This document shows positions 1 to 10,027 of a stretch of 10,070 nt of DNA, one piece after another. Both the position numbers and the translations under genes were made by a program. Origin of the DNA: Candidatus Peregrinibacteria bacterium (lineage in GTDB: Bacteria > Patescibacteriota > Gracilibacteria > UM-FILTER-43-11). The notes beneath the pieces are model-generated. The model made no database searches and had not been told where the DNA came from. It was given only the letters and a program-made list of their open reading frames with translations. Positions within the stretch are counted from its first letter, which is position 1, and each line of letters opens with the position of its first letter. The stretch covers positions 1-10,070 of the forward strand of contig DAOWGG010000043.1 of the NCBI GenBank assembly GCA_030637565.1. Reading direction: 5' to 3'.

Positions 1-29
1 AAGCCGATTTCTTCTTGGATAATATGCAT
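1..29 (-). CDS. rpoA: Possible start of RNA polymerase alpha subunit (partial)
   Basis: The ATG at base 29 opens nine visible codons, MHIIQEEIG. Gene order predicts rpoA directly after rpsD in alpha operons, and this short stretch is compatible with an RpoA N-terminus, but nine residues cannot prove it. It lies in the same frame as rpsD with no stop between, so it is either a separate gene whose upstream neighbour lacks a stop, or the second half of an S4-alpha fusion. No Shine-Dalgarno sequence precedes it, as for nearly all genes here. The call rests mainly on synteny. Confidence 0.4.
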
Positions 30-668
30 AAGATATAAGTTAAGGGTGATAAGGTTTTCTCGTGAGTAGAACTCAACAATAAGTTGGCTTTCGATACTTT
101 TTTCAAGCTCATCCTTTTCAGGAGGAGAGGCAATCTCAGCCGATACTTTCTTCAAATCAACAGAAAGCCATTTTGGAGAATAGTCTTTTAATTTTCCAAG
201 CTCACCGTACAACGAAGAATCTTTTAATTTAGGAACAATTTCAATCTTATCGCCAGGACGAACTGAAATAGAAGGAACATCCACACGACGACCGTTTAAG
301 CGGAAGTGACCATGTGAAACCATCTGACGAGCCTGCATACGAGTCACGGCAAACTGAGAAACATAAACAACATTATCTAAACGTAGCTCAAGAAGACGAA
401 GAAGGTTTTCACCAGTCTCACCTGGCATTTTAGAAGCTTTTTTGAAGTAATTTCTGAATTGTTTTTCGGAAATACCGAATAAAATACGAGCCTTTTGCTT
501 TTCGCTAAGCTGTTTACCATATTCACTCACTTTTCCAAAAGACATCTTTCCACCATGAGCTCCTGGCTTTCCAGGTCGGCGCTCTAATATTTTATTGTAC
601 TTTTCAGTTCCAAATAAATTGGCTCTATGACGTCTACAAAGTCTAGCTTTCGGTCCTGTATATCTCAT
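1..668 (-). CDS. rpsD: Small-subunit ribosomal protein S4 (uS4); frame stays open to the window edge
   Basis: S4 binds 16S rRNA early and nucleates assembly of the 30S body; in some bacteria it also represses the alpha operon. The reading frame opens at ATG 668 with MRYTGPKARLCRRH, typical of S4. Only one cysteine lies in the N-terminal part, so this is the zinc-free form. The S4 RNA-binding domain covers about residues 92-145 (RLDNVVYVSQFAVTR, then HGHFRLNGRRV). The canonical C-terminus IVEFYSR ends at residue 203 (base 60). Oddly, no stop follows: the frame continues for 10 residues to a Met at residue 214 (base 29) and then leaves the window. The S4 part is therefore 60-668, and the rest may be spacer plus rpoA. 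Identity as S4 is certain; the true 3' end is not. Confidence 0.95.
   Translation of the reverse strand, partial: MRYTGPKARLCRRHRANLFGTEKYNKILERRPGKPGAHGGKMSFGKVSEYGKQLSEKQKARILFGISEKQFRNYFKKASKMPGETGENLLRLLELRLDNVVYVSQFAVTRMQARQMVSHGHFRLNGRRVDVPSISVRPGDKIEIVPKLKDSSLYGELGKLKDYSPKWLSVDLKKVSAEIASPPEKDELEKSIESQLIVEFYSRENLITLNLYLMHIIQEEIG
27..54. repeat. Four degenerate 7-base units between the S4 C-terminus and the next ATG
   Basis: On the + strand, 27-33, 34-40, 41-47 and 48-54 read as heptads sharing ATAAG at the same offset in three of four (CATAAGA, TATAAGT, GATAAGG). This matches the heptad build of the other spacers and suggests that the stretch is spacer in origin, although it is now readable in the rpsD frame. 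The array is short and AT-rich, so chance is a real possibility. Confidence 0.45.
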
Positions 669-721
669 GTAAGGTTAAAGTTAAGATAAATAATGTATTT
701 ATCCTGATTGATAGTAAAAAA

Positions 722-1111
722 TTAAACGCGCCTAGGTCTTTTCTTTCGGCAGCCGTTATGAGGCATTGGAGTTTGATCAAAAATAGCCTCTAACTCAAGA
801 CCAGCAGCATGTAAACCTCGAATAGCCTGTTCACGACCAGTTCCTACTCCTTTTACAAAAACCTTCACTCGCTCAACTCCATAAGGAGCCACTTTTTCAA
901 CCACTTTTTCAGCAGTAATAGTTGCCGCGTAAGGAGTGGATTTACGAGTCCCCTTAAAACCATTCGCTCCAGCAGAAGCCCACACAAGTACATTCCCGCT
1001 AGGTTCAGCAATGGTGATCATTGTATTGTTGTAGGTTGCTGTTACGTAAGCATGTGCCAACGGAACACTCTTCCTAATCTTCTTCTTATTTTTAGTCGTT
1101 TTATCTGCCAT
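722..1111 (-). CDS. rpsK: Small-subunit ribosomal protein S11 (uS11)
   Basis: S11 sits on the platform of the 30S subunit near the mRNA exit (E-site) region. The product has 129 residues, the usual bacterial length. It begins with a lysine-rich extension (residues 5-14), followed by the family core: HAYVTATYNNT, SAGANGFKGTRKSTPYAA and VKVFVKGVGTGREQAIRGL, ending with TPMPHNGCRKKRPRRV, which is almost invariant in bacterial S11. The start is the ATG at 1109-1111; its leader (ATTAAATTTAATTTTT) has no Shine-Dalgarno sequence. It lies between rpsM (55-base spacer with a heptad array) and rpsD (53-base spacer), the standard alpha-operon order. Nothing in the protein is abnormal. Confidence 0.98.
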   Translation of the reverse strand: MADKTTKNKKKIRKSVPLAHAYVTATYNNTMITIAEPSGNVLVWASAGANGFKGTRKSTPYAATITAEKVVEKVAPYGVERVKVFVKGVGTGREQAIRGLHAAGLELEAIFDQTPMPHNGCRKKRPRRV

Positions 1112-1127
1112 AAAAATTAAATTTAAT

Positions 1128-1169
1128 ATCTGAGATCTGAGATCTGAGATATTTAGAGATTAAATATTA
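1128..1169. repeat. Heptad array in the rpsM-rpsK spacer (3 exact ATCTGAG copies)
   Basis: On the + strand ATCTGAG occurs three times without a mismatch at 1128-1134, 1135-1141 and 1142-1148. Degenerate AT-rich heptads follow in register (ATATTTA, GAGATTA, AATATTA), the last ending exactly on the rpsM stop codon complement at 1167-1169. The array fills most of the spacer and enters neither gene beyond that stop. Confidence 0.85.
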
Positions 1170-1547
1170 TTTCTTGGTTGCTTGTAGTTTTCCACTTCCC
1201 ATTGTCTGCTTTTTACCACGTTTGGTTCGAGCGTTCGTTTTAGTACGCTGTCCACGTGCAGGAAGATGTCGTCGATGACGGAATCCACGGTAAGTGCCGA
1301 TCTCCTGAAGACGTTTTACATTACTGGTAACAACACGCTTCAAATCTCCTTCAACAATCATCTTGTTAACCTCATCACGGATTTTTTGTTCATCCGCAGA
1401 AGAAAGGTCTTCAACCTTAGTGTCTAAGTTAATTTTTAACCTCTCAAGAAGCTCCTGACTTGAACTTCGTCCAATACCATAGACATAAGTTAGAGCCACT
1501 TCAATACGTTTTCCTTTTGGGAGATTAACACCTGCTATTCTTGCCAT
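1167..1547 (-). CDS. rpsM: Small-subunit ribosomal protein S13 (uS13)
   Basis: S13 is in the head of the 30S subunit, forms bridges to the 50S subunit and touches P-site tRNA through its basic tail. The product has 126 residues. Family features in order: [21 protein letters not shown] at the N-terminus, the [13 protein letters not shown] helix-hairpin region (about 23-35), a central helical part, and the signature [22 protein letters not shown] (about 88-109), followed by a lysine-rich tail ending KLQATKK. The start is ATG 1547 and the leader is AT-rich without Shine-Dalgarno. It lies 40 bases after rpmJ and 55 before rpsK, as in most alpha operons. No anomalies. Confidence 0.98.
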
Positions 1548-1587
1548 ATCAAATAAAAATTGAAAAATTAAAAGTCATATATTTCAA

Positions 1588-1704
1588 CTATCCTTGTCTT
1601 TGTTTATGTTTTTTAGAAGATGGACAAATAACACGTACCACCCCTCTTCGCTTAATAACGCGACATTTCTCACACATTTTTTTTACAGAAGCTCTTACTT
1701 TCAT
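1588..1704 (-). CDS. rpmJ: Large-subunit ribosomal protein L36 (bL36), zinc-ribbon type
   Basis: This gene encodes 38 residues from ATG 1704 to TAG 1588-1590. L36 is the smallest bacterial ribosomal protein and binds 23S rRNA near the L6 region. It starts [14 protein letters not shown] and ends KKHKQRQG. All four zinc ligands are present (Cys11, Cys14, Cys27, His33), so this is the zinc-binding C+ form. It lies 48 bases after infA and 40 before rpsM, the standard position. It is one of two genes here that stop with TAG. Its leader has the only purine-rich block in the window that could act as a Shine-Dalgarno sequence (GAGGGG, minus strand), although 12 bases from the ATG is rather far. Confidence 0.96.
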
Positions 1705-1752
1705 AGTGAGTTGCAACCCCTCTATCGGGATCAAGTTAGTTAAACAATTAGT
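1705..1752 (-). promoter_or_regulatory. GC-richer leader of rpmJ with a possible distant Shine-Dalgarno
   Basis: Unlike the other spacers, this one has a G/C-rich core. On the minus strand it contains CCCGATAGAGGGG followed by GTTGCAAC, a perfect 8-base palindrome, then CTCACT and the ATG. TCCC can pair with GGGG across a GATAGA loop. GAGGGG (1717-1722) lies 12 bases before the start codon. No heptad register is visible. Whether it is a ribosome binding site, a protein-binding hairpin or neither cannot be decided from one sequence. Confidence 0.35.
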
Positions 1753-1980
1753 CTATTTATGGCGATAAGTAATACGCCCTTTAGTTAAATCGTACGGTGT
1801 CATCTCGATAGTCACAAGGTCACCAGGGAGAATGCGGATATAGTTCATACGAACCTTTCCAGAAACGTGAGCCAAGATGGTATGCCCCTTATATTGCTCT
1901 CCGATCAATTCCACCTTAAACGTGGCATTGGAAAGAGTTTCTACAATTCGACCTTCTACCTCTATAACTTGTTTCGCCAT
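1753..1980 (-). CDS. infA: Translation initiation factor IF-1
   Basis: IF-1 binds the ribosomal A site during initiation and works with IF-2 and IF-3 to place initiator tRNA. The protein has 75 residues; most bacterial IF-1 have 71-73. It is a single S1/OB-fold domain: [16 protein letters not shown], then [20 protein letters not shown] and [14 protein letters not shown], all diagnostic. The few extra residues lie in the loop GEQYKGHT (about 27-34). The start is ATG 1980, without Shine-Dalgarno. The stop is TAG. It follows the longest gap in the window, which has a candidate promoter, so infA may head a separately transcribed alpha operon. Confidence 0.98.
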
Positions 1981-2006
1981 ACTATAATTTTAAACAAAGC
2001 GGTAAG

Positions 2007-2035
2007 AGTTTACACGATACAATGACTCAGTGCAA
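2007..2035 (-). promoter_or_regulatory. Candidate sigma-70-type promoter upstream of infA
   Basis: On the minus strand TTGCAC (2030-2035) could be a -35 box and TAAACT (2007-2012) a -10 box, separated by exactly 17 bases. Matches to consensus are 3 of 6 and 4 of 6. A transcript from here would start near 2000, giving a leader of about 20 bases before the infA ATG. It lies in the 97-base map-infA gap, the largest in the window and the clearest one without heptads. The match is modest. Confidence 0.35.
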
Positions 2036-2077
2036 GGGATTTTTTAGGGTTTTTTTTAAAGGCAAAAGAGACACTTT

Positions 2078-2833
2078 TTAAGCCAAAATTTCAAACCCAT
2101 TTTGCGTCACTAAAACCGTATGCTCAAAATGAGCGGAAAGGCTTCCGTCTGCGGTTAAAACCGTCCAACCATCTTCATCTGTTACCACGTTACGTTGACC
2201 CATGGAAGCAATGGGCTCGATGGCGAAGATCATACCCGCTTGTATGACAGGACCTGCGCCTTTCTGTCCAACATTGAGAATCTCGGGTGGTTCATGCAAA
2301 TCAACCCCCACTCCATGCCCTGTACATTCAACAATTGGAGAGTAACCTTGGTCTTCAAGTGTTTTTTGGATCGCTGCAGAGATATCACCAATATGACCAT
2401 TGGGGCGAACCTGTTTAACGGCATTTTTAAGAGAAACCTTTGTTGTTTTGACAAAATGACGAACTTCAGGAGGTACATCTCCTACTAAAGCGGTAATACA
2501 AGCATCCGTATAGAGACCTTCATACAAAACACCGCAATCGATTCCAACAATGTCTCCCGATTCCAAAACCAATTCCTGAAGAGGAATCCCATGGACTACC
2601 TCTTCGTTAACAGAAGTGCAAAGCGTTGCTGGAAAACCATGATACCCCTTAAATCCAGGAGTTGCCCCCTTGTGACTTCGGATAAACTCCTCAGCCAATT
2701 GATCTAATTCCAGGGTAGTAATACCAGGACGAACAGCCTCTTCCATTTTTTTAAGTGTCTCCCTCAAAATAGCACCCCCTTTTCGCATCGCTTCAATTTG
2801 CTCTGGTGTTTTAATAGGGATATCTCCTTGCAT
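2078..2833 (-). CDS. map: Methionine aminopeptidase, type I
   Basis: This cytoplasmic metalloenzyme removes the initiator methionine from nascent proteins. I place the start at ATG 2831-2833 (MQGDIPIKTPEQIEAMRKGG), giving 251 residues, rather than at a TTG two codons upstream. It has the pita-bread fold with all five metal ligands: Asp99 (GIDCG), Asp110 (TDAC), His173 (GHGVG), Glu206 (AIEPI) and Glu237 (FEHTV); His81 of VVHGIP is the conserved substrate-side histidine. There is no N-terminal zinc-finger extension and no type II insert, so it is the ordinary bacterial form. It sits between adk and infA, the common order in many bacteria. The leader lacks Shine-Dalgarno. Confidence 0.97.
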   Translation of the reverse strand: MQGDIPIKTPEQIEAMRKGGAILRETLKKMEEAVRPGITTLELDQLAEEFIRSHKGATPGFKGYHGFPATLCTSVNEEVVHGIPLQELVLESGDIVGIDCGVLYEGLYTDACITALVGDVPPEVRHFVKTTKVSLKNAVKQVRPNGHIGDISAAIQKTLEDQGYSPIVECTGHGVGVDLHEPPEILNVGQKGAGPVIQAGMIFAIEPIASMGQRNVVTDEDGWTVLTADGSLSAHFEHTVLVTQNGFEILA

Positions 2834-2845
2834 AATCAATATAGA

Positions 2846-2915
2846 ATTTTTAATTCTGAATTCGAATAATTAAACATTCTTTGGAAATTGGTTATTTGAA
2901 ATTCAGAATTGGAAA
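2846..2915. repeat. Heptad spacer between adk and map, with an 11-base inverted repeat
   Basis: From 2881 to 2915 the + strand divides into heptads: TTGGAAA (2881-2887), TTGGTTA, TTTGAAA, TTCAGAA and TTGGAAA again (2909-2915), ending directly against the adk stop codon complement. The part from 2853 has ATTCTGA and ATTCGAA side by side. AATTCTGAATT (2852-2862) and AATTCAGAATT (2900-2910) are perfect reverse complements 37 bases apart. Confidence 0.7.
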
Positions 2916-3554
2916 TTAGCTAAAAAGGTAGTCTACCTTTTCAACCATCTCCTCGGTCACCTTTTCAACCACTTGCTCTCCATCCACCTCAACCAAACGA
3001 TCCTGCTCATAAAACCCTTTAATAACCGGAACGGTTTCTTTTTGATAGTTCTCAAGCCGCTTTTGAATACTTTCGAGGTTGTCATCATGACGAACCACTA
3101 GCTTTCCTCCACAATGCTGACATTCATCAGCTTTATAAGCAGGTGGATAAACTCCCTTGCAACCTTCGCAAACTCGCCGTTGAGTTAAGCGACTGATCGC
3201 CTCTTGTTCAGAAATCTTAATTAAAACAGCAAAAGCAGACCGACTGTATTCTGAAAGTAAATTTAAAAGTTTTTCAGACTGATGAAGAGTTCGAGGAATC
3301 CCATCAAAAAGGATGGAATCTTCTGGATTAACACCACTTAAAAAATCACCAATCACTTCGACAATCGTATCGTCATCTACCAAGTTACCTGCTTCCACAA
3401 TAGTTTTAACTTTTTGACCAAGTTCAGAACCCGATTCAATCATCCGACGAAGCTCCCCTCCCATTTCAAAGGTTTTAAGATTGTATTTCTCAGCCAAAAA
3501 CTTACCTTGAGTCCCTTTCCCAGACCCTTGCATTCCAAATAGTATGATATCCAT
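2916..3554 (-). CDS. adk: Adenylate kinase with zinc-binding lid
   Basis: Adenylate kinase catalyses ATP + AMP = 2 ADP and keeps the cytoplasmic adenylate pool in balance. The product has 212 residues, close to the usual 210-220. The Walker A loop is GMQGSGKGT (residues 7-15), with Gln where most bacterial enzymes have Pro. Residues 32-37 (GGELRR) correspond to the AMP-binding GDxLR region, and DGIPR (84-88) to the usual DGFPR. The lid carries Cys129, Cys132, Cys145 and Cys148, a four-cysteine zinc site typical of long-form enzymes. It lies between secY and map, the common spc order. Start ATG 3554, no Shine-Dalgarno. The small motif changes are conservative and I expect an active enzyme. Confidence 0.97.
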   Translation of the reverse strand: MDIILFGMQGSGKGTQGKFLAEKYNLKTFEMGGELRRMIESGSELGQKVKTIVEAGNLVDDDTIVEVIGDFLSGVNPEDSILFDGIPRTLHQSEKLLNLLSEYSRSAFAVLIKISEQEAISRLTQRRVCEGCKGVYPPAYKADECQHCGGKLVVRHDDNLESIQKRLENYQKETVPVIKGFYEQDRLVEVDGEQVVEKVTEEMVEKVDYLFS

Positions 3555-3564
3555 ATTTTTTATA

Positions 3565-3627
3565 GCGATAAGAATTAAGCAGTCAGAATTAAGCTTATTG
3601 CTTATGGCTTACTGCTTATGGCTTTTA
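3565..3627. repeat. Nine in-register heptads in the secY-adk spacer
   Basis: On the + strand nine consecutive 7-base units all begin with G. GAATTAA occurs at 3572-3578 and 3586-3592. GCTTATG occurs at 3600-3606 and 3614-3620, with GCTTATT and GCTTACT as neighbours. The last unit, GCTTTTA (3621-3627), includes the complement of the secY stop codon. Two perfect direct repeats with a 14-base period result: AGAATTAAGC (3571 and 3585) and TGCTTATGGCTT (3599 and 3613). Confidence 0.85.
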
Positions 3628-4923
3628 ATAAAGTTTATCGTAATCGTGCATCACCAATTGAGCATCGATTTGACGAATAAGATCTAGAATTACACCCACC
3701 ATAATAATCAACCCCGCACCACTGATGATTAAATCTCCAGCAGTTAAAGTAGTATATTTGGTGAAGATGATCGGAACCACTGCAACCAAAGCAATAAAAC
3801 TACCACCAAATAAATTTAGATAACTAGAACTTTTTGCAAGGAAGTCAGCGGTCTGACTACCAGGACGAACTCCAGGAATAAATCCTCCACGCTTTTGAAT
3901 ATTTTCAGCAATGGTATCTGGATTAAAAGTAACACTGACATAGAAATATGAAAAAGCAACAATGAGCAGGAAGTAAAGAACAATATAAAAATAACTCGGA
4001 TTATTAGAATTAAGGTATGTCCCGATAAAGTCGGCAACACCCTGAAGCACAGTAGAACTAGAGACACTAAAGAATTGGGCGATAACCGATGGGAAAGTCA
4101 CCATAGAAATCGCGAAGATGATAGGGATCATTCCCGCCTGATTCACACGAATCGGCAGAACAGATTTTTCACCTTTTCCACCCGTTGCCCTTGTCGCATA
4201 AGTAATTGGAATATTGCGTTGCCCTTCAGTAATAAGTACAACGAAAACAAGCATAATTAAGGTGAGTGCAACGAACAGCAGGAAGTGAATAAGCTTTGTA
4301 CTGTCCCCCGCCTGAAAAGTTCCAAGCATTCGACCAAATACGGTCGGCATACCAGCAATAATTCCAGCGAAGATAATCAAAGAAATGCCATTTCCAATTC
4401 CATTCTCAGTGATCAGTTCACCCAACCACATCATAAAGATAGTACCTGCCGCAACAACAATCATAATAGGAAGTAATGTCATGAAATCGGCAGCCCCTGG
4501 AATCAGTTGACCTTGAGCGCTACGATTCAAAAGAAGAATCATTCCGTAAGACTGAAGAAAAGCGAGAGGGATGGTAAGCAATCGAGTGTACTTATTGATC
4601 TGACGTCGCCCTTCCATTCCTTCTTTAGAAAGTGTTTCTAATTTAGGAATAACCACTGTCATCAACTGCATAATAATCGATGCATTAATGTAAGGAGCAA
4701 GTCCCATCAAAACAATGGAAAAACTCTCCATCGATCCACCTGTTAAAGCAGAGAACACACCCAACAAACTATTCTGTTGGAAAACACTTGCTAACACCTC
4801 CACATTAACACCCGGAACTGAAATATGAGCGGCAACTCTGAAAACAAACAAAACAAAAAGAGTAAATAAAATTTTACGTCTTAATGCAGCAGACCGCCAA
4901 ATTTGATGTAAATATTTAAACAC
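3625..4923 (-). CDS. secY: Protein translocase channel subunit SecY
   Basis: SecY forms the inner-membrane channel of the SecYEG translocon, through which secreted proteins pass and membrane proteins insert. The product has 432 residues, normal for the family, and about ten hydrophobic segments. Recognisable blocks: MFKYLHQIWRS with the first membrane segment (17-34), RQINKYTRLL (107-116), GELITENGIGNGISL (168-182), IPITYATR (238-245), LPIRVNQAGMIPIIFA (256-271), the cytoplasmic NPDTIAENIQKRGGFIPG (334-351) and the basic/acidic C-terminal end. The start is GTG 4921-4923: an in-frame TAA lies six codons upstream and no ATG intervenes, so the N-terminus is well fixed. It is the only non-ATG start in the window and has no Shine-Dalgarno. 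Neighbours rplO and adk are as usual. Confidence 0.98.
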   Translation of the reverse strand: MFKYLHQIWRSAALRRKILFTLFVLFVFRVAAHISVPGVNVEVLASVFQQNSLLGVFSALTGGSMESFSIVLMGLAPYINASIIMQLMTVVIPKLETLSKEGMEGRRQINKYTRLLTIPLAFLQSYGMILLLNRSAQGQLIPGAADFMTLLPIMIVVAAGTIFMMWLGELITENGIGNGISLIIFAGIIAGMPTVFGRMLGTFQAGDSTKLIHFLLFVALTLIMLVFVVLITEGQRNIPITYATRATGGKGEKSVLPIRVNQAGMIPIIFAISMVTFPSVIAQFFSVSSSTVLQGVADFIGTYLNSNNPSYFYIVLYFLLIVAFSYFYVSVTFNPDTIAENIQKRGGFIPGVRPGSQTADFLAKSSSYLNLFGGSFIALVAVVPIIFTKYTTLTAGDLIISGAGLIIMVGVILDLIRQIDAQLVMHDYDKLY

Positions 4924-4925
4924 AG

Positions 4926-4988
4926 TAGATAGATTTTAGATCTCAGAACTCAGATATGAGATATGAGATATGAGATATGAGATATTAA
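4926..4988. repeat. Heptad array in the rplO-secY spacer (4 exact ATATGAG copies)
   Basis: On the + strand ATATGAG is repeated four times exactly at 4954-4981. Degenerate units precede it in the same register, all ending in AG: TAGATAG (4926), ATTTTAG (4933), ATCTCAG (4940) and AACTCAG (4947). The following unit ATATTAA (4982-4988) takes in the complement of the rplO stop codon. The array spans essentially the whole 61-base spacer. Confidence 0.88.
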
Positions 4989-5422
4989 AGGACCTTTCCT
5001 CCAGCAGCAACCACCTTGCTTCTTGCTGCAGTGGAAACCTTATGAAGTTTTATGGTTAGTTTTTTGGTGATTTTTCCGTTACCAAGCAACTTAACCGGTT
5101 GAATTTTTCGACGAACAAGACCTTTTTCAAGCAATGTCAATACATTCACTTCATCCCCATCATTGAATTGGTCTAAGTCTTTTACATTGATTACCTGGAA
5201 CTCAACTTTATTAGGATTTTTAAAACCTTTTAGCTTAGGAAGACGCATGATCAAAGGAGTTTGACCCCCTTCAAAACCAGCACGAACATTACCACTTTTA
5301 CGTTGACCTTGCCCTTTACACCCACGACCAGAGAAAGTTCCACGACCAGAGCCATTTCCTCGTCCAACTCGCCTTTTAGATTTAAGGGCGCCAGCCTTTG
5401 GTTTAATTGAATTTAACTGCAT
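4985..5422 (-). CDS. rplO: Large-subunit ribosomal protein L15 (uL15)
   Basis: L15 is a late-assembly protein of the 50S subunit whose long basic N-terminal arm reaches into 23S rRNA. The product has 145 residues, the usual size. The Gly/Arg-rich arm is plain: KSKRRVGRGNGSGRGTFSGRG (about 15-35), then KSGNVRAGFEGGQTPLIMRLPK (42-63) and KGF. The C-terminal globular part ends KVSTAARSKVVAAGGKVL, matching the family signature. The start is ATG 5422 in an AT-rich leader. Upstream is rpsE, only 24 bases away, where most bacteria carry rpmD; downstream is secY after a heptad spacer. Confidence 0.97.
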   Translation of the reverse strand: MQLNSIKPKAGALKSKRRVGRGNGSGRGTFSGRGCKGQGQRKSGNVRAGFEGGQTPLIMRLPKLKGFKNPNKVEFQVINVKDLDQFNDGDEVNVLTLLEKGLVRRKIQPVKLLGNGKITKKLTIKLHKVSTAARSKVVAAGGKVL

Positions 5423-5446
5423 AACAATACTTATAAATTTAAAAAA

Positions 5447-6061
5447 TTATTTCTTAGTAACTTCTTTATCTTTTGATTCTTTTTTAGGCTTTGCGTCCTG
5501 TTTTGAATCACCACCTCCCCTTTTTTCAGATCTTTCAGGCTTTTTAGCCTCTTTCTTTTCTTCCCTTTTCTTTTCCTTCCCTGCTTTAGCAGGTCGAAGG
5601 GTTTCCAAAGCCATAATCGCTGCCTGAGCCGTAACCAATTTATTATTGGTCCCGTGATTCTTACTCAATACATTCTTAACACCAGCCAAACCTAAAATCT
5701 TACGAAGCGCTCCACCAGCGATAACACCAGTACCAGGAGCCGCTGGCATAATAAACATACGAGCTGCCTTATGCTTAACGTGAACTTCATGAGGAATTGA
5801 ATCAGCATCCGTAATAGGAACGTTAACAAGAGATTGTTTAGCTCTAGTAACCGCTTTTTTAATTCCACTCACCACTTCAGTCGCCTTACCAACTCCAACA
5901 CCAACACGTCCTTTTTTATCTCCAATGGCAACCAAACAACGGAAGCGTAAACGACGCCCTCCTTTTACCACACGAGTTACACGATCAATCTGAAGCACTT
6001 CTTCTTCAAATTCTTTCACTTCTTTCTCGCGACGATGATTTTTATTGAATTTCTTAGCCAT
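5447..6061 (-). CDS. rpsE: Small-subunit ribosomal protein S5 (uS5) with a long charged C-terminal tail
   Basis: S5 lies at the mRNA entry side of the 30S subunit and influences decoding accuracy. The product has 204 residues against roughly 165 in most bacteria. The core is normal: VTRVVKGGRRLRFRCLVAIGD (28-48), the GRVGVGVGKATEV loop (51-63), IPHEV (89-93), MPAAPGTGVIAGGALR (105-120) and the GTNN block (137-140), up to about residue 156. The remaining 48 residues are almost all Lys, Glu, Arg, Ser, Asp and Gly and look disordered. Start ATG 6061, no Shine-Dalgarno. rplR is upstream; rplO follows directly because rpmD is absent. Confidence 0.97.
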   Translation of the reverse strand: MAKKFNKNHRREKEVKEFEEEVLQIDRVTRVVKGGRRLRFRCLVAIGDKKGRVGVGVGKATEVVSGIKKAVTRAKQSLVNVPITDADSIPHEVHVKHKAARMFIMPAAPGTGVIAGGALRKILGLAGVKNVLSKNHGTNNKLVTAQAAIMALETLRPAKAGKEKKREEKKEAKKPERSEKRGGGDSKQDAKPKKESKDKEVTKK

Positions 6062-6090
6062 ATTAGGAATTAGTAATTAGTAATTTAGTA
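6062..6090. repeat. Heptad array in the rplR-rpsE spacer (ATTAGTA word)
   Basis: The + strand reads ATTAGGA (6062-6068), ATTAGTA (6069-6075), ATTAGTA (6076-6082), then an eight-base variant with one extra T (6083-6090), ending next to the rplR stop codon complement at 6092-6094. The array starts at the first base after the rpsE start codon complement, so the whole spacer is repeat. Confidence 0.75.
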
Positions 6091-6091
6091 A

Positions 6092-6433
6092 TTAAAAGTT
6101 AAGTCCTCCCTCACGAGCTCCTTCAGCCAAGGCTTTTACACGCCCATGGTAAAGGTACCCACCACGATCAAACACACAAGTTTCGATTTTCTTAGTTTTG
6201 GCCATTTTAGCCAAAGCAAGACCAGATTCCTTAGCCGCTTCCACACCTTTCTTTTTTGCTTTCAAAGAAGAGGTTGAAGCCAAAACCAATCCTTTTGAAT
6301 CATCCACAAGTTGTGCGTAAATAGCGTTATTGCTTCTGAAAACAGAAAGACGTGGCCGTTTAGCCGTACCAATAATTCTGGATCGAACGCGTTGTTGTCG
6401 CCTTTTACGTAATTGTTCTTTTAATGCAGTCAT
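6092..6433 (-). CDS. rplR: Large-subunit ribosomal protein L18 (uL18)
   Basis: L18 binds 5S rRNA, with L5, and helps to anchor it in the central protuberance of the 50S subunit. The true start is ATG 6431-6433 ([20 protein letters not shown]), giving 113 residues, the normal length. The open frame runs on upstream, but that stretch is the opposite-frame shadow of rplF and is not L18. Family motifs: [21 protein letters not shown] (25-45), LASTSS (51-56) and the C-terminal [25 protein letters not shown] (87-111). The leader, 25 bases from rplF, is AT-rich and has no Shine-Dalgarno. Standard position between rplF and rpsE. Confidence 0.96.
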
Positions 6434-6458
6434 AATAAAAATTATAGAATTAACGAGA

Positions 6459-7013
6459 TTATGCGGCAGCTTTTGCAGCAGCCTTACCAGCTTTACGAGC
6501 AACATATTCATCAATATAACGAACTCCTTTCCCCTTATAGGGTTCAGGGGGCCGATATTTACGAATGTTCGCTGCAGCCTCACCAACCGCTTGTTTATCA
6601 ATGCCAGAAATAATAATAATATTCTTATTTTCTTTATCCATTTCAATCAAAACCCCTTCTGGAGCGGTATAATCGATAGGATGAGAAAAGCCAAGATTTA
6701 AAGTGATTTTTTGACCACTAGCCTGAGCTCGATAACCCACACCAATGATCTCTAAACGCTTTTCAAACCCTTTAGAAACACCAATAACCATATTATTCAC
6801 AAGCGCTCGAGTAAGACCGTGAATACTACGAGATTCTTTATCATCTCCAGGCCTTTTGATAATAATAGTATTGTCTTCAACAATAACTTCAACCTGAGGC
6901 AAGAAATTGTATTCTAATTCCCCCTTAGGACCTTTCAATTTAACATTGCGATCTGCAATAGTTACCTCTACACCACTTGGAATTTCGATGGGTTGTTTAC
7001 CGATTCTAGACAT
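6459..7013 (-). CDS. rplF: Large-subunit ribosomal protein L6 (uL6)
   Basis: L6 lies near the factor-binding region of the 50S subunit and is needed for its late assembly. The product has 184 residues, within the usual range. It is a duplicated domain protein: the first half starts [15 protein letters not shown] and holds [10 protein letters not shown] (24-33); the second has [19 protein letters not shown], then [31 protein letters not shown], the strong C-terminal signature of the family. It ends with an alanine/lysine-rich stretch ([10 protein letters not shown]). Start ATG 7013 with an A/T leader. Neighbours rpsH and rplR are standard. Confidence 0.97.
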
Positions 7014-7016
7014 TCT

Positions 7017-7051
7017 TTAAAAATTTAAAAATTACAAAATTGAAATAAATT
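7017..7051. repeat. Weak heptad register in the rpsH-rplF spacer
   Basis: The + strand can be divided into TTAAAAA (7017), TTTAAAA (7024), ATTACAA (7031), AATTGAA (7038) and ATAAATT (7045). The last unit runs into the rpsH stop codon complement. Because the sequence is almost pure A/T, the register is suggestive only; I include it because it agrees with the stronger spacers. Confidence 0.4.
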
Positions 7052-7433
7052 ACCAGATCTGACAAAGATATTCACCTCCCAATCCAACCTTAGCCGCTTC
7101 GTCACCAGTCATCACTCCTTTAGGAGTAGAAATAATAGAAATACCATAACCATTTAAAACAGGTCTGATATCGTTCTTTTTTAAGTAAATTCGTTGTCCA
7201 GGTTTACTGATACGCTTTAGGTTGATCTGGCTCAACTGTGAGTTAAATACAATCTCGATTTCATCAAAACGGTTATCTTTGACAACTTTATAGCTATCGA
7301 TAAAATTACGTTTTTTCATTACTTCGAGAACAGCTACCTTAACTTTTGAGTATGGAGCAACCGTTTTCTGCTGTCTAGCGCTGACAGCATTTCGAATCCG
7401 AGTTAGTAAATCTGCAATTGGATCAGTGTTCAT
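7050..7433 (-). CDS. rpsH: Small-subunit ribosomal protein S8 (uS8)
   Basis: S8 binds helix 21 of 16S rRNA and is a core assembly protein; in E. coli it also represses spc-operon translation. The product has 127 residues, close to the typical 130. It starts MNTDPIADLLTRIRNAVSA (positions 1-19, a firm family signature) and ends STPKGVMTGDEAAKVGLGGEYLCQIW, where the usual block is STSKGVMTDREAR. The conserved RISKPGQRIY lies at about 74-83. Start ATG 7433; the leader shows no Shine-Dalgarno. It follows rpsN after a heptad spacer and precedes rplF. Confidence 0.97.
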   Translation of the reverse strand: MNTDPIADLLTRIRNAVSARQQKTVAPYSKVKVAVLEVMKKRNFIDSYKVVKDNRFDEIEIVFNSQLSQINLKRISKPGQRIYLKKNDIRPVLNGYGISIISTPKGVMTGDEAAKVGLGGEYLCQIW

Positions 7434-7475
7434 ATTTGAATTTAAAATTTAAGACTTAAAATTTAGAAATTTGGA
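7434..7475. repeat. Six in-register heptads in the rpsN-rpsH spacer
   Basis: The + strand of the 43-base spacer divides without remainder into ATTTGAA (7434-7440), TTTAAAA, TTTAAGA, CTTAAAA, TTTAGAA and ATTTGGA (7469-7475), followed by one base before the rpsN stop codon complement. The units begin immediately next to the rpsH start codon complement. Similarity between units is obvious but composition is biased. Confidence 0.65.
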
Positions 7476-7476
7476 A

Positions 7477-7701
7477 TTACCAGCTTGATTTTTTAATACC
7501 CATAATCTCTCCCTTGGAGGCTAGCTCACGAAAACAAATACGGCAGATCTGAAAGTATCGAAGGTAACCACGAGAGCGACCACATAACTTACAACGATTG
7601 TAAGTACGAACCCACTTTGCAGGTTTCTTACCTTGAGCCAAAGCTTGTTTCATCTTTCTTTGACGCTTTTCCGTTTTAACAATAAGTGCTGTTCGAGCCA
7701 T
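7477..7701 (-). CDS. rpsN: Small-subunit ribosomal protein S14, zinc-binding type Z (uS14)
   Basis: S14 is a late-binding protein of the 30S head, near the A site. The product has 74 residues. It is the zinc form: Cys37 and Cys40 (CKLC) pair with Cys53 and Cys56 (CRIC), within [20 protein letters not shown], and ends [18 protein letters not shown], the standard zinc-type C-terminus. The family normally has 61 residues. The excess of about 13 lies before the first CxxC pair, in the stretch [16 protein letters not shown] (15-30), making it longer but still far short of the roughly 100-residue zinc-free form. Start ATG 7701. Flanked by rplE and rpsH, the usual order. Confidence 0.97.
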
Positions 7702-7731
7702 GAGATTTAAAAGTGATAATAATTAAAATGT

Positions 7732-8274
7732 TTAAAGTTCTTTTTTGAATGGGAAGCCAATTTTTTTCAAAAGAGCCATTCCTTCCTCATCATTCTTAGC
7801 AGTGGTAACAACAGTAATCTGAACACCATGTACATTAGTAACGTCATCTGGATTGATCTCGGGGAATACAAGTGCCTCCTTAAAACCAATGTTATAGTTA
7901 CCATTTCCATCGAAAGACTTAGTAGAAACACCACGGAAGTCGCGCACACGAGGGAAAACAACGTTAACCAAACGATCCATTAAATCATAAGCACGTTTCC
8001 CACGAAGAGTGGTGCTGATGCCCACAGGCATTCCTTTTCGAAGCTTGAAGTTAGAAACCGCAATCTTAGATTTCATCACCAATGGCTTTTGACCAGTGAT
8101 CTTTGTAATATTTTCAATCACTTCAGAAAAATCCTTGGTCTGTTTAGCCAAACTTCCGATACCCACATTCACTTTAACTTTAGCAATACGCGGAGTCGCG
8201 AGGTCGCTTTTTAGTCCAAGGTCTTTCTTAAGAGCGGGGATAATCTCTGATTGCATTCGATCGTATAAACTCAT
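7732..8274 (-). CDS. rplE: Large-subunit ribosomal protein L5 (uL5)
   Basis: L5 binds 5S rRNA in the central protuberance and contacts P-site tRNA. The product has 180 residues, the usual bacterial length. Signature parts: KVKVNVGIGSLAK (32-44), ITKITGQKPLVMKSKIAVSNFKLRKGMPVG (56-85), TLRGKRAYDLMDRLV, then RDFRGVSTKSFDGNGNYNIGF and the C-terminal FPEINPDDV followed by GVQITVVTTAKNDEEGMALL, ending GFPFKKEL. Start ATG 8272-8274; 30 bases separate it from rpsN and 57 bases of heptad repeat from rplX. No Shine-Dalgarno. Confidence 0.97.
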   Translation of the reverse strand: MSLYDRMQSEIIPALKKDLGLKSDLATPRIAKVKVNVGIGSLAKQTKDFSEVIENITKITGQKPLVMKSKIAVSNFKLRKGMPVGISTTLRGKRAYDLMDRLVNVVFPRVRDFRGVSTKSFDGNGNYNIGFKEALVFPEINPDDVTNVHGVQITVVTTAKNDEEGMALLKKIGFPFKKEL

Positions 8275-8330
8275 GATTTAATATTGAAATTTGAGATCTG
8301 AGATTTAAAATCTGAGATCTGAGATAATAA
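8275..8330. repeat. Eight in-register heptads in the rplX-rplE spacer (ATCTGAG word)
   Basis: The + strand units are GATTTAA (8275), TATTGAA (8282), ATTTGAG (8289), ATCTGAG (8296), ATTTAAA (8303), ATCTGAG (8310), ATCTGAG (8317) and ATAATAA (8324). The exact word ATCTGAG is the same as in the rpsM-rpsK spacer about 7 kb away. The array begins at the first base after the rplE start codon complement and stops one base before the rplX stop codon complement. Confidence 0.85.
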
Positions 8331-8331
8331 A

Positions 8332-8673
8332 TTATTTTTTCTTCTTATCAGCTTTAGCGATAGCCTGTTCAACCGATTCGTTACATTTCAGGCAAACACG
8401 GAATTTTTTACCAGTCTTTGGAATGCTGTATCCAACACGAGTGGTTTTGTTACAACTGGAACAGATAAGCATTACTTTAGAAGCATCAAAAGGAGCTTCA
8501 TATTTTACACGCTGACCAGCCTGTGTTGCTGATTTCTTAACGTGCTTCGTGCGAATGTTCACTTTCTCAACCGTCACACGGTCGGTTTTTTTAAAGGTAC
8601 GCATCACCACACCGGTTTTACCCTTATTCTTTCCAGCGACCACCAATACTTTGTCTTTTGCCTTGATTTTCAT
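8332..8673 (-). CDS. rplX: Large-subunit ribosomal protein L24 (uL24) with four-cysteine C-terminal motif
   Basis: L24 initiates assembly of the 50S subunit and later sits near the peptide exit tunnel. The product has 113 residues. The KOW motif occupies about 5-32 (KDKVLVVAGKNKGKTGVV). The C-terminal half carries two CxxC pairs, Cys71/Cys74 and Cys94/Cys97, flanking TTRVGYSIPKTGKKFRV, as in many but not all bacterial L24 proteins, so zinc binding is probable. It ends in a lysine-rich stretch. Start ATG 8671-8673, AT-rich leader without Shine-Dalgarno. rplN is upstream across a 38-base heptad spacer; rplE is downstream. Confidence 0.97.
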   Translation of the reverse strand: MKIKAKDKVLVVAGKNKGKTGVVMRTFKKTDRVTVEKVNIRTKHVKKSATQAGQRVKYEAPFDASKVMLICSSCNKTTRVGYSIPKTGKKFRVCLKCNESVEQAIAKADKKKK

Positions 8674-8679
8674 CTTAAA

Positions 8680-8714
8680 TATTTAGATATGAGATATAAG
8701 TTCTGAGATATTTA
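8680..8714. repeat. Five in-register heptads in the rplN-rplX spacer
   Basis: The + strand units are TATTTAG (8680), ATATGAG (8687), ATATAAG (8694), TTCTGAG (8701) and ATATTTA (8708-8714). The last unit includes the rplN stop codon complement at 8712-8714. The words are close to those of the rplO-secY spacer. Confidence 0.7.
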
Positions 8715-9080
8715 TAGTACTTCAGGGGCTAATGAGATAATTTTCTGATACCCCTTTGAACGAAGTTCGCGAGCGATAGGACCGAATACACGTGTCCCCT
8801 TAGGCTGTCCCTCCTTACTAACAATCACACACGCATTTTCATCAAATTTTAAGTAAGATCCGTCAGAACGACGAATGGATTTAGCAGTACGAACCACAAC
8901 AGCTCGTTCCACAGAGTGATTTTTTACAATTCCCTTTGGAGAAGCGTGCTTAACCGCGACAACGATTACATCACCAACGTGTGCATAGCGCCTCTTTGAT
9001 CCTCCAAGGACCTTAATACACATCACGCGCTTTGCTCCTGTGTTGTCTGCCACACTCAGCAGAGATTGAGTTTGAATCAT
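8712..9080 (-). CDS. rplN: Large-subunit ribosomal protein L14 (uL14)
   Basis: L14 forms part of intersubunit bridges with 16S rRNA and is the docking site of the silencing factor RsfS. The product has 122 residues, the standard length. Family blocks: [28 protein letters not shown] (1-28), the [16 protein letters not shown] region (36-51), then [18 protein letters not shown] and [14 protein letters not shown] near the C-terminus, all typical. Start ATG 9078-9080, only 12 bases after the rpsQ stop, so translation is probably coupled. No Shine-Dalgarno sequence fits in this gap or the end of rpsQ. Confidence 0.98.
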
Positions 9081-9092
9081 GGTATAAAATTA

Positions 9093-9332
9093 TTATTTAG
9101 CAGATACGTTTTCCACAACCTTCCATCTTTTTAGTTTGCTAACAGGTCTTGTCTCAGCAATTGTAACCTCATCACCAATCGCGAACTGAGAACTATCATC
9201 GCAATGAGCATAAAACTTTTTAGAAACCTGATAACGCTTCTTATATTTAGGGTGACGTTTGTAAGTAACAACAGTAACCACTAAGGTCTTCTCCATTTTG
9301 TTGCTGGTGATAACGCCGGTTTTGGTACGCAT
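9093..9332 (-). CDS. rpsQ: Small-subunit ribosomal protein S17 (uS17)
   Basis: S17 is an early-assembly OB-fold protein of the 30S body. The product has 79 residues, normal for bacteria. Recognisable parts: GVITSNKMEKTLVVTVVTYKRHPKY (6-30; the family has G-x-V-x-S-x-K-M-x-K-T), FYAHCDD (41-47), then FAIGDEVTIAETRPVSKLKRWKVVE (50-74), the strong C-terminal signature. Start ATG 9330-9332 with the leader TTTAATTTATTCCAC, lacking Shine-Dalgarno. It lies 26 bases after rpmC and 12 before rplN. Confidence 0.97.
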   Translation of the reverse strand: MRTKTGVITSNKMEKTLVVTVVTYKRHPKYKKRYQVSKKFYAHCDDSSQFAIGDEVTIAETRPVSKLKRWKVVENVSAK

Positions 9333-9358
9333 GTGGAATAAATTAAAGGGAAAATAAA

Positions 9359-9604
9359 TTATTTCTGTTCTTCTTTAGACTTTTTTGGTTCAGATGGAGC
9401 TTTAGTCGCCTCTTCTGATCCAGCCTCTTTTATCATTGTAAGAAGTTGGGCAATATAACGCTTGGTTTTTTTTGCCTTACTTAAGTTTTTATCGTGCTTG
9501 GTTCTAATGGTAAGTCTAACTTTTACCATTTCTTTACGCATCTTAGTAAGCTCTTGAAGGAGCTCTTTTACAGTCGATGATCTTAATTCTTGAATCGATA
9601 GCAT
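9359..9604 (-). CDS. rpmC: Large-subunit ribosomal protein L29 (uL29)
   Basis: L29 is a small helical-hairpin protein at the peptide exit of the 50S subunit, where it helps to dock the signal recognition particle and trigger factor. The product has 81 residues, somewhat longer than the usual 60-70. The two-helix core is seen in LSIQELRSSTVKELLQELTKMRKEM (2-26) and the KNLSKAKKTKRYIAQLLTMI stretch (39-58). The excess is a charged C-terminal tail rich in Glu, Lys and Ser (residues 61-81). Start ATG 9602-9604, nine bases after the rplP stop, so coupled translation is likely. Identification rests on position and the KxKKTKRYIAQ core. Confidence 0.93.
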   Translation of the reverse strand: MLSIQELRSSTVKELLQELTKMRKEMVKVRLTIRTKHDKNLSKAKKTKRYIAQLLTMIKEAGSEEATKAPSEPKKSKEEQK

Positions 9605-9613
9605 ATTGAATGA

Positions 9614-10027
9614 TTAGTGACGAGTAACAAATTTAGTTTTAACTGGCAATTTTGAATCAGCCAATCGGAAAGCTTCACGAGCAATATCTTCTGGTACTCC
9701 ATCCATTTCAAACAAAATTCGACCAGGTCGCACACGTGATACAAAGAATTCAACACTTCCTTTTCCAGATCCCATTGGAACTTCCGCAGGTTTGCGAGTA
9801 ATGGGTGTGTGTGGGAAAATACGAATCCAGATTTTTCCTCCACGCTTGACATAACGAGTCATGGCACGTCGAGCCGCCTCAATTTGTCGAGAGGTAAGCT
9901 CTCCGCCCGCTTGAGCCTTAAGGCCAAACGTTCCAAAGCTAACCGCATTCCCCACATGAGACTTTCCTTTCATCTGCCCTCTTCCTCGGTGTATTTTCCT
10001 ATATTTTTGCTTCTTAGGTTGTAACAT
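9614..10027 (-). CDS. rplP: Large-subunit ribosomal protein L16 (uL16)
   Basis: L16 helps to shape the A-site tRNA binding region near the peptidyl transferase centre. The product has 137 residues, standard length. It begins [21 protein letters not shown], followed by [29 protein letters not shown] (31-59), the [25 protein letters not shown] block (67-91) and [23 protein letters not shown] (102-124), then ends [11 protein letters not shown]. All of these are typical of bacterial L16. Start ATG 10025-10027; the leader has no Shine-Dalgarno. rpsC is expected upstream but its coding part is outside the window. Confidence 0.98.

Follow-up and report, generated by a model that had tools for sequence, protein, structure and literature searches.

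Heptanucleotide arrays of many words, often with inverted partners, in the intergenic spacers of a ribosomal operon from a Candidatus Peregrinibacteria bacterium and in related genomes

Why should the spacers between the genes of a ribosomal operon be built in steps of seven bases, with a word that changes from place to place? The question is raised by contig DAOWGG010000043.1 of an uncultured Candidatus Peregrinibacteria bacterium (assembly GCA_030637565.1). The complete contig of 10,070 bases, called the window below, was analysed; it belongs to a genome of 957 kb in 167 contigs (79% complete) and carries a ribosomal operon transcribed leftward (Table 1). A preliminary description of the sequence had reported heptad units in eight of the spacers. 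The pattern is real and strong, and it most likely represents duplication filler rather than a signal.

Of the 19 window spacers, 17 (those of at least 20 nt; two are too short) were compared with 1000 dinucleotide shuffles at lags 3 to 21. At lag 7 the pooled match reaches 0.519, whereas the shuffled sequences give 0.329 ± 0.017 (z 10.96, with 0 of 1000 shuffles as high), and harmonics appear at lag 14 (z 7.8) and lag 21 (z 5.6). The adjacent lags are flat (z -0.06 at lag 6 and -0.04 at lag 8), and the window genes have no lag-7 signal (z -1.35), only the codon period. The z-score at lag 7 (z7) exceeds 3 in eight of the 17 spacers (p ≤ 0.002 each), the weakest being adk-map (3.25) and rplN-rplX (3.07); these are exactly the eight spacers named in the preliminary description, and its claim of a dominant lag 7 in spacers came through this comparison unrefuted. 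In the other nine spacers lag 7 is not significant (the lowest p, in rpmJ-rpsM, is 0.068). Period 7 is also reported, independently, by Tandem Repeats Finder at 1128-1150, 2881-2917, 3593-3624, 4952-4985, 6062-6094, 7439-7472, 8292-8325 and 8685-8711. Two details have to be corrected. Each spacer was said to have its own word, but on the mRNA strand ATCTC followed by two variable bases is common to four of the eight arrays (rpsM-rpsK, rplO-secY, rplX-rplE and rplN-rplX). The arrays were also said to run from start to stop codon, but seven of the eight fill only part of their spacer, for example 23 of 55 nt in rpsM-rpsK.

The period extends well beyond the window. The main pooled set consisted of 1,900 spacers (197 kb) from this and related genomes, with duplicates removed. 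It contained 359 tandem arrays: 243 of unit 7, 43 of unit 8, 20 of unit 9, 19 of unit 12, 11 of unit 10, nine of unit 4, six of unit 6, and four each of units 5 and 11. From shuffled sequences 1.8 arrays of unit 7 are expected. Far from being limited to two or three spacers, the pattern includes eight window spacers and these 243 arrays. Unit 7 accounts for 14 of 15 arrays over 16 stretches of the host genome (window included), for 66 of 78 across 15 ribosomal loci of the family, and for 86 of 123 at 75 other named ribosomal loci, where at least one unit-7 array occurs in 24 of the 74 loci yielding spacers. In 20 of 112 SecY-bearing genomes drawn from the phylum, 24 of 39 arrays have unit 7, and such arrays are present in 7 of 20 loci. 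The load is uneven within one family, ranging from 28 of 65 co-directional spacers in one genome (G006) to 0 of 34 in another (G003). An Escherichia coli control, a 50-kb S10/spc stretch, gave zero arrays and a lag-7 z of -1.8.

It is important to read these counts together with the sampling. Gene calling relied on a simple codon score devised for this work, which misses small genes, and spacers longer than 400 nt or shorter than 20 nt were excluded (15 in the eight-genome comparison below). Two genomes, G006 and G058, were chosen for their many arrays, and G001 was sampled after its arrays had been seen; the non-operon stretches are the first contigs by number and are not random. Loci L049-L052, most match loci and L053-L057 (genomes already represented) were excluded from the counts, as were seven contigs picked for carrying the window word or the G058 word. 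An earlier set of 1,919 spacers included 19 second copies (15 overlapping calls and four from a contig taken twice); the main counts were rerun on the 1,900 and are the same in kind, and the column test and the arm variant-order test described below refer to the 1,919 spacers with their 19 second copies.

Arrays of unit 7 are nearly absent from coding sequence, as had been stated from the window: in 11 genomes, six were found in 778 kb of genes and 124 in 73 kb of spacers. Arrays that do lie inside genes mostly have a unit of 6, 9 or 12 (49 of 61). Broken down by spacer class, 184 of 1562 co-directional spacers hold a unit-7 array, as do 14 of 137 convergent ones and 13 of 201 divergent ones. 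Of 212 arrays in the co-directional class, 78 start no more than 5 nt from the stop codon and 63 finish no more than 5 nt from the start codon. It had been proposed that the arrays are A/U-rich leaders which replace the Shine-Dalgarno sequence. This was rejected because arrays are about equally frequent in convergent spacers, where there is no start codon, and because the arrays are not biased to the start side. Specificity for the ribosomal operon was likewise rejected: an apparent enrichment in 11 genomes (57/239 vs 41/268, p 0.018) is gone in eight of these genomes, where arrays occur in 25 of 183 ribosomal and 20 of 152 other co-directional spacers (17 of 157 and 12 of 94 without G001).

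The period is independent of the word. There are 134 distinct consensus words among the 243 unit-7 arrays, and relatives retain the period while changing the word. An earlier suggestion was a protein that reads 7-base steps; one that reads a single seven-base word is unlikely given this number, although the strand-specific sharing of words within genomes, presented below, leaves some room for selection.

The internal order of the arrays is that of local duplication. In the 1,900 spacers there are 258 exact two-copy tandem duplications of unit 7, ninefold above the 28.2 expected, and 34 exact runs longer than two copies, against 0.05. No excess is found at unit 4 (918 vs 973 expected) or unit 5 (289 vs 294); it is slight at unit 6 (116 vs 93), reaches 36 vs 9.8 at unit 8, and involves smaller numbers beyond. 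After removal of the unit-7 arrays from the spacers, the duplication excess is still highest at 7 (54, against 25 at 6 and at 8). The majority of arrays are degenerate, with exact runs of at least three copies numbering 34 among the 243. In 171 arrays of at least 28 nt, adjacent-unit matches number 3617, compared with 3494 (sd 16) after shuffling of unit order (0 of 500 as high). In 19 arrays of at least 42 nt, the identity of units declines with distance (0.81, 0.77, 0.72, 0.69, 0.66), while in shuffled order it goes from 0.74 to 0.72. In 105 arrays the deviations concentrate in two columns (0.81 vs 0.66 random), which can be understood because changes get copied by duplication. A grammar of five fixed plus two variable positions was dropped, as the deviant columns adjoin each other scarcely more often than after permutation (0.69 vs 0.67).

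Comparison of orthologous spacers suggests that arrays are gained. The rplO-secY spacer has 61 nt with its array here, and three relatives have an array with a different word in spacers of 43, 31 and 30 nt; in 12 relatives without an array it ranges from 10 to 70 nt (median 13.5), seven of them at 10-14 nt. The median spacer is longer when an array is present in 12 of the 15 gene pairs having both states. Orthologous spacers of relatives are mostly array-free or carry a different word. Congeners rarely have an array in a common position: in G001 and G012 an array is found in both at two places (one with an identical word) and in one only at four; in another genus, three genomes compared pairwise give one and eight. 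The likeness of adjacent units, the jump of duplications at 7 and the suggested gains into spacers fit repeated local duplication by a seven-base step. Loss of mismatch repair was considered as a cause: MutS_I was found in 0 of 16 family genomes, array-rich and array-poor alike. Arrays occur at 4 of 14 loci of genomes with MutS_I and at 29 of 46 without it (p 0.033), and if the family is set aside the figure for genomes lacking it is 16 of 30 (p 0.19), a comparison confounded by kinship.

Another feature of the arrays, overlooked in the preliminary description, is their inverted pairing. The reverse complement of each array was searched against the rest of the same spacer, and a partner was accepted when it beat all 20 shuffles. 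Such partners were found for 89 of 182 testable unit-7 arrays, against 8.7 expected, and for 49 of 85 arrays of units 8-12 (15/32 at 8, 15/20 at 9, 4/11 at 10, 2/4 at 11 and 13/18 at 12); arrays of units 4-6 have none (0 of 15). As a control, random 30-nt pieces of array-free spacers have inverted partners in 96 of 889 cases. Direct partners are rarer (27 of 182 unit-7 arrays). The median gap between arms over 61 pairs is 25 nt, and 44 of these partners show a period of 7 themselves. Four of the eight array spacers of the window have significant inverted arms. The two arms have the same word, but the order in which its variants occur is not shared: in 28 testable pairs of 62, the score is 15.0 vs 14.5 by chance. 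Direct copying of one arm into the other is thus unsupported, and a short inverted seed with separate growth of the arms fits better than whole-arm copying.

Some further inserts were noticed in the same material. One ribosomal stretch (L282, genome G069) contains seven arrays with units other than 7, six being unit-8 arrays whose A-rich words are related; this is seemingly a genome of step 8. Spacer inserts in rpsM-rpsK, adk-map, rplR-rpsE and rplX-rplE of G001, G002 and G006 (L034, L036, L037) show GATT roughly every nine bases and are a nine-base cousin of the heptads. Unit-12 arrays with cores such as CCAATTGTGG occur in L036, L146, L183, L224 and L225; many have an inverted partner, and some may be misread coding repeats. 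A hairpin-like insert around CCCGCCACAGGCGGATTTATAAC, with variants, is present in rplR-rpsE, rpsN-rpsH and rplF-rplR of G012, G005 and G011 (L035, L038, L042) and looks like a small dispersed palindromic element.

On balance, the arrays are probably fast-turnover tandem repeats which arise by replication- or repair-linked duplication with a seven-base step and are mostly neutral filler. A stretch of seven bases (less often 8 to 12) would be copied twice, and later slips would add or remove units. Point changes would build up and be copied in turn. Since the word would drift along the array while the step stays constant, the period would be set by the copying machinery and the word by chance at each site. 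Arrays would be tolerated in spacers and purged from genes. Many may begin at or near a short inverted repeat, a hairpin seed that would favour slippage, and the independent growth of the arms would yield two arrays facing each other as in a hairpin. In E. coli, template switching at quasi-palindromes is an established process (PMC7202029, in the portion available), and it has been proposed as a source of hairpins (PMC8794818, likewise); it may also be the origin of the pairs here. Slippage-grown filler was one of the roles suggested at the outset. It agrees with the local-duplication signature, the gains into short spacers, the words that are seldom inherited and the nearly array-free genes, and most arrays may have no function.

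Several observations weigh against this explanation. It gives no reason for a step of seven in particular, the variant order of the arms is not shared, and the rplO-secY spacer of G010 is 70 nt long yet array-free. Divergent spacers are poorer in arrays (13 of 201 in the pooled set; 8 of 60 in the eight genomes, or 3 of 41 without G001), and per nucleotide the ribosomal spacers of these eight are denser in arrays (1.9 vs 1.2 per kb). In 15 genomes with at least five arrays, words are shared on the same strand by 18.0% of 1692 pairs, compared with 7.4% on opposite strands and 6.2% when permuted; between different stretches of one genome the sharing is 14.0% of 1010 pairs vs 5.5%. Such sharing is not predicted, because slippage at each site would be independent. 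In the ribosomal contig of G058, 12 of 14 arrays belong to one word family (ATTCT plus two bases); arrays are found in 12 of 20 co-directional spacers of this contig and in 0 of 35 of ten other contigs. Across that genome, 44 of 53 matches to ATTCTNN in three units fall in the ribosomal contig (overlapping matches counted). Composition is also uneven between strands. Single arrays in co-directional spacers have little G when read as mRNA (G 0.052, C 0.161; of 139, 101 have more C than G and 23 more G than C), while array-free co-directional spacers have G at 0.174, and the lean to C persists outside ribosomal loci (29 vs 9 of 46, any arrays). The G depletion hints at selection on the RNA or at a strand-linked process; one of these, or copying between spacers, may add to slippage.

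The strand bias and the same-strand sharing of words are arguments for regarding the arrays as selected RNA spacers. G-poor, weakly folding arrays would hold the intercistronic mRNA open for ribosome standby or for binding of S1 or cold-shock protein, and would avoid a false Shine-Dalgarno sequence. Slippage would supply the raw material, and selection would keep the sense orientation and spread favoured words within a genome. A similar proposal for TAACTGA repeats is offered in the account of MacGregor (PMC4679880). We consider this explanation unlikely. The near-equal frequency in convergent spacers and at the stop and start sides does not favour it, the ribosomal preference is not clear in the eight genomes, and some family genomes, such as G003, keep the operon nearly array-free. 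The folding of array spacers also resembles that of array-free ones in the same length class: the mean z-scores for co-directional spacers, means alone being compared, are 0.03 vs -0.18 at 20-60 nt, -1.48 vs -1.12 at 60-120 nt and -1.51 vs -1.92 at 120-300 nt.

A second alternative is that the hairpins themselves are selected, the inverted pairs acting as stem-loops which end transcripts or protect the mRNA, with the tandem step as a route to changes in length. The frequency of partners, the median gap of 25 nt between arms and the significant arms in half of the window arrays would suit this, as would the folding of three window array spacers (z -3.1, -2.9 and -2.4); Xanthomonas arrays are reported to pair likewise near 3' ends in the available part of PMC4692102. 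However, the mean folding z-scores just given do not distinguish array spacers, and the variable letters of the arms match only at chance level. TTTT follows within 10 nt in just 9 of 52 co-directional pairs, and four of the 61 pairs are in divergent spacers, where no transcript ends. The idea is considered improbable. RNA structure as a common principle was rejected for the same likeness of folding z-scores; in addition, the window has zero matches to Rfam at gathering scores. Dispersal of preformed arrays or seeds from spacer to spacer, by ectopic recombination or from a mobile or template-borne source, would account for the words shared within genomes and for the one word family of the G058 operon, but with several unrelated words in single genomes and words drifting inside arrays it is very improbable.

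The duplication reading can be taken one step further. The arrays could be a word-free patescibacterial element defined by geometry alone, a seven-base step (sometimes 8 to 12) plus a mirrored partner, which arises from fold-back replication with a step set by the polymerase, so that the step is inherited and not the sequence; the Xanthomonas arrays would be another case. This is a speculative and rather doubtful extension.

The features of the window are collected in Table 1. Ten of the 20 operon genes (rpsK, rpsM, map, adk, secY, rplO, rpsE, rplR, rpsH and rplX) were checked with NCBIfam; the names of the remaining genes are presumed, mainly from gene order. The best 80 named of 584 SecY relatives are mostly from metagenome-assembled genomes of Patescibacteria, many labelled Candidatus Peregrinibacteria, Peribacteria or Gracilibacteria, and not from cyanobacteria. 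The apparent start codon of secY is GTG (4921-4923). The SecY gene of some class-mates contains many in-frame TGA codons; recoding of TGA in Gracilibacteria is a parallel. Two genes resembling secY lie on contigs C144 and C145 of G005; the second shares only 41% identity with the query and is either a second SecY or contamination. The rpsE-rplO spacer (5423-5446, 24 nt) is too small for rpmD (L30), a gene missing in many Patescibacteria.

Table 1. Ribosomal operon, heptad arrays and inverted arms in the 10,070-base window (z7, z-score at lag 7)
Feature	Position	Strand	Remarks
Host ribosomal operon	3..10027	(-)	20 genes, leftward transcription, from open reading frames
Operon gene order: rplP, rpmC, rpsQ, rplN, rplX, rplE, rpsN, rpsH, rplF, rplR, rpsE, rplO, secY, adk, map, infA, rpmJ, rpsM, rpsK, rpsD		(-)	
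rpsM-rpsK spacer: ATCTCAG heptad array, core 1128-1150, 3.3 copies	1125..1153	(-)	z7 4.7
rpsM-rpsK self-complementary arms	1125-1137 / 1141-1153	(-)	inverted arms p 0.005
adk-map spacer: weak degenerate heptads, period-7 row 2881-2917 at 63% matches	2834..2915	(-)	z7 3.25
adk-map inverted arms	2852-2862 / 2900-2910	(-)	p 0.02
secY-adk spacer: TAAGC + two variable bases, 3593-3624; inverted partner 3564-3580	3564..3624	(-)	z7 5.3, arms p 0.02
rplO-secY spacer: ATCTCAT heptad array, 4.9 exact copies at 4952-4985	4940..4985	(-)	z7 6.5
rplO-secY degenerate inverted partner	4940-4955	(-)	p 0.07, alone not significant
rplR-rpsE spacer: AATTACT heptad array	6062..6091	(-)	z7 3.9
rpsN-rpsH spacer: TTTAAAT-type heptad array	7439..7472	(-)	z7 4.1
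rplX-rplE spacer: ATCTCAG heptad array; self-complementary arms 8294-8305 / 8309-8320	8287..8331	(-)	z7 5.6, arms p 0.01
rplN-rplX spacer: weak ATATCTC heptad array	8685..8711	(-)	z7 3.1, p 0.002

Seven-base repeats are familiar from cyanobacteria, whose short tandemly repeated repetitive (STRR) sequences are specific heptanucleotide words. It had been stated that no counterpart is described in a bacterium of the present type; this was too strong, as heptanucleotide repeats have been described in Beggiatoaceae, Xanthomonas and Nostoc (PMC4679880 and PMC4692102, in the parts available). In a literature search directed at Patescibacteria, the Candidate Phyla Radiation and Peregrinibacteria, no paper describing heptad arrays in these groups was found, which is not proof of absence. 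According to a 2007 survey (Mrazek et al. 2007, as cited in PMC4679880 and PMC4692102), heptanucleotide repeats are the commonest long simple repeats of many bacteria, and in Table 3 of Mrazek and Huang (2014, PMC4060949) the index of unit 7 is the highest among units 6, 7 and 8 in seven of eight classes. Slippage with 7 nt as the contact length of the polymerase was proposed earlier, as told in PMC4679880. The long simple repeats of these accounts resemble the present arrays: unit 7 is the commonest among units of 5-11 nt, and they are intergenic, with chiefly multiples of 3 inside genes. They differ in that most genomes have a weak excess and perfect repeats were counted, whereas here most arrays are degenerate, and the arrays have many words in each genome, are often in inverted pairs and are far above chance in number.

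Together with these repeats, the GGGAATC, or (GGGANTN)n, arrays of Xanthomonas are the nearest known likeness. In the part of PMC4692102 that is available they are mostly intergenic and form 70 and 75 convergent pairs in two species with 186 and 183 arrays. The heptad step, the fixed and variable positions, the intergenic location, the inverted pairing (here 89 of 182) and the lengths that vary between relatives are common to both. However, that system has one G-rich word with quadruplex potential, while the present words are many, A/T-rich and G-poor, with G making up 5-11% of the sense-strand bases of arrays in co-directional spacers. GGGAATC is the consensus of 0 of the 243 unit-7 arrays (one lies within one mismatch), and its doublet occurs in one of the 1,900 spacers; the Nostoc word GGGGATT is the consensus of two of the 243. 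The direct repeats of TAACTGA known from marine Beggiatoaceae, some Cyanobacteria and Bacteroidetes are also intergenic heptads, ribosomal operons included. They differ, in the account of MacGregor (2015, PMC4679880), in having a single favoured word, a place mostly beside start codons, one indirect set against 169 direct ones, and related words that are rarely repeated. A perfect TAACTGA doublet was found in 0 of the 1,900 spacers, and 12 of the 243 unit-7 arrays are within one mismatch of the word. The tandem repeats of archaeal Borgs, as reported in the available part of PMC9879509, are likewise fast evolving, independently formed and strand-biased in composition; they differ in having perfect units, 18-21 nt long in the examples given, and in lying inside genes in about half of the cases. 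The heptad arrays described here are a many-word, mirrored, high-load form of the known heptanucleotide repeats.

For the excess of seven-base repeats reported in 2007 we found no settled explanation in the accounts that cite it (PMC4679880 and PMC4692102, in part). The present genomes tie tandem growth to inverted pairing, and they advise caution against treating the spacers of such genomes as regulatory sites. They also separate the step from the word: over a hundred words are found at one step, gained between highly conserved genes and often mirrored. The question of why the step is seven therefore becomes directly testable, by the size spectrum, by comparison of repair genes and by experiment.

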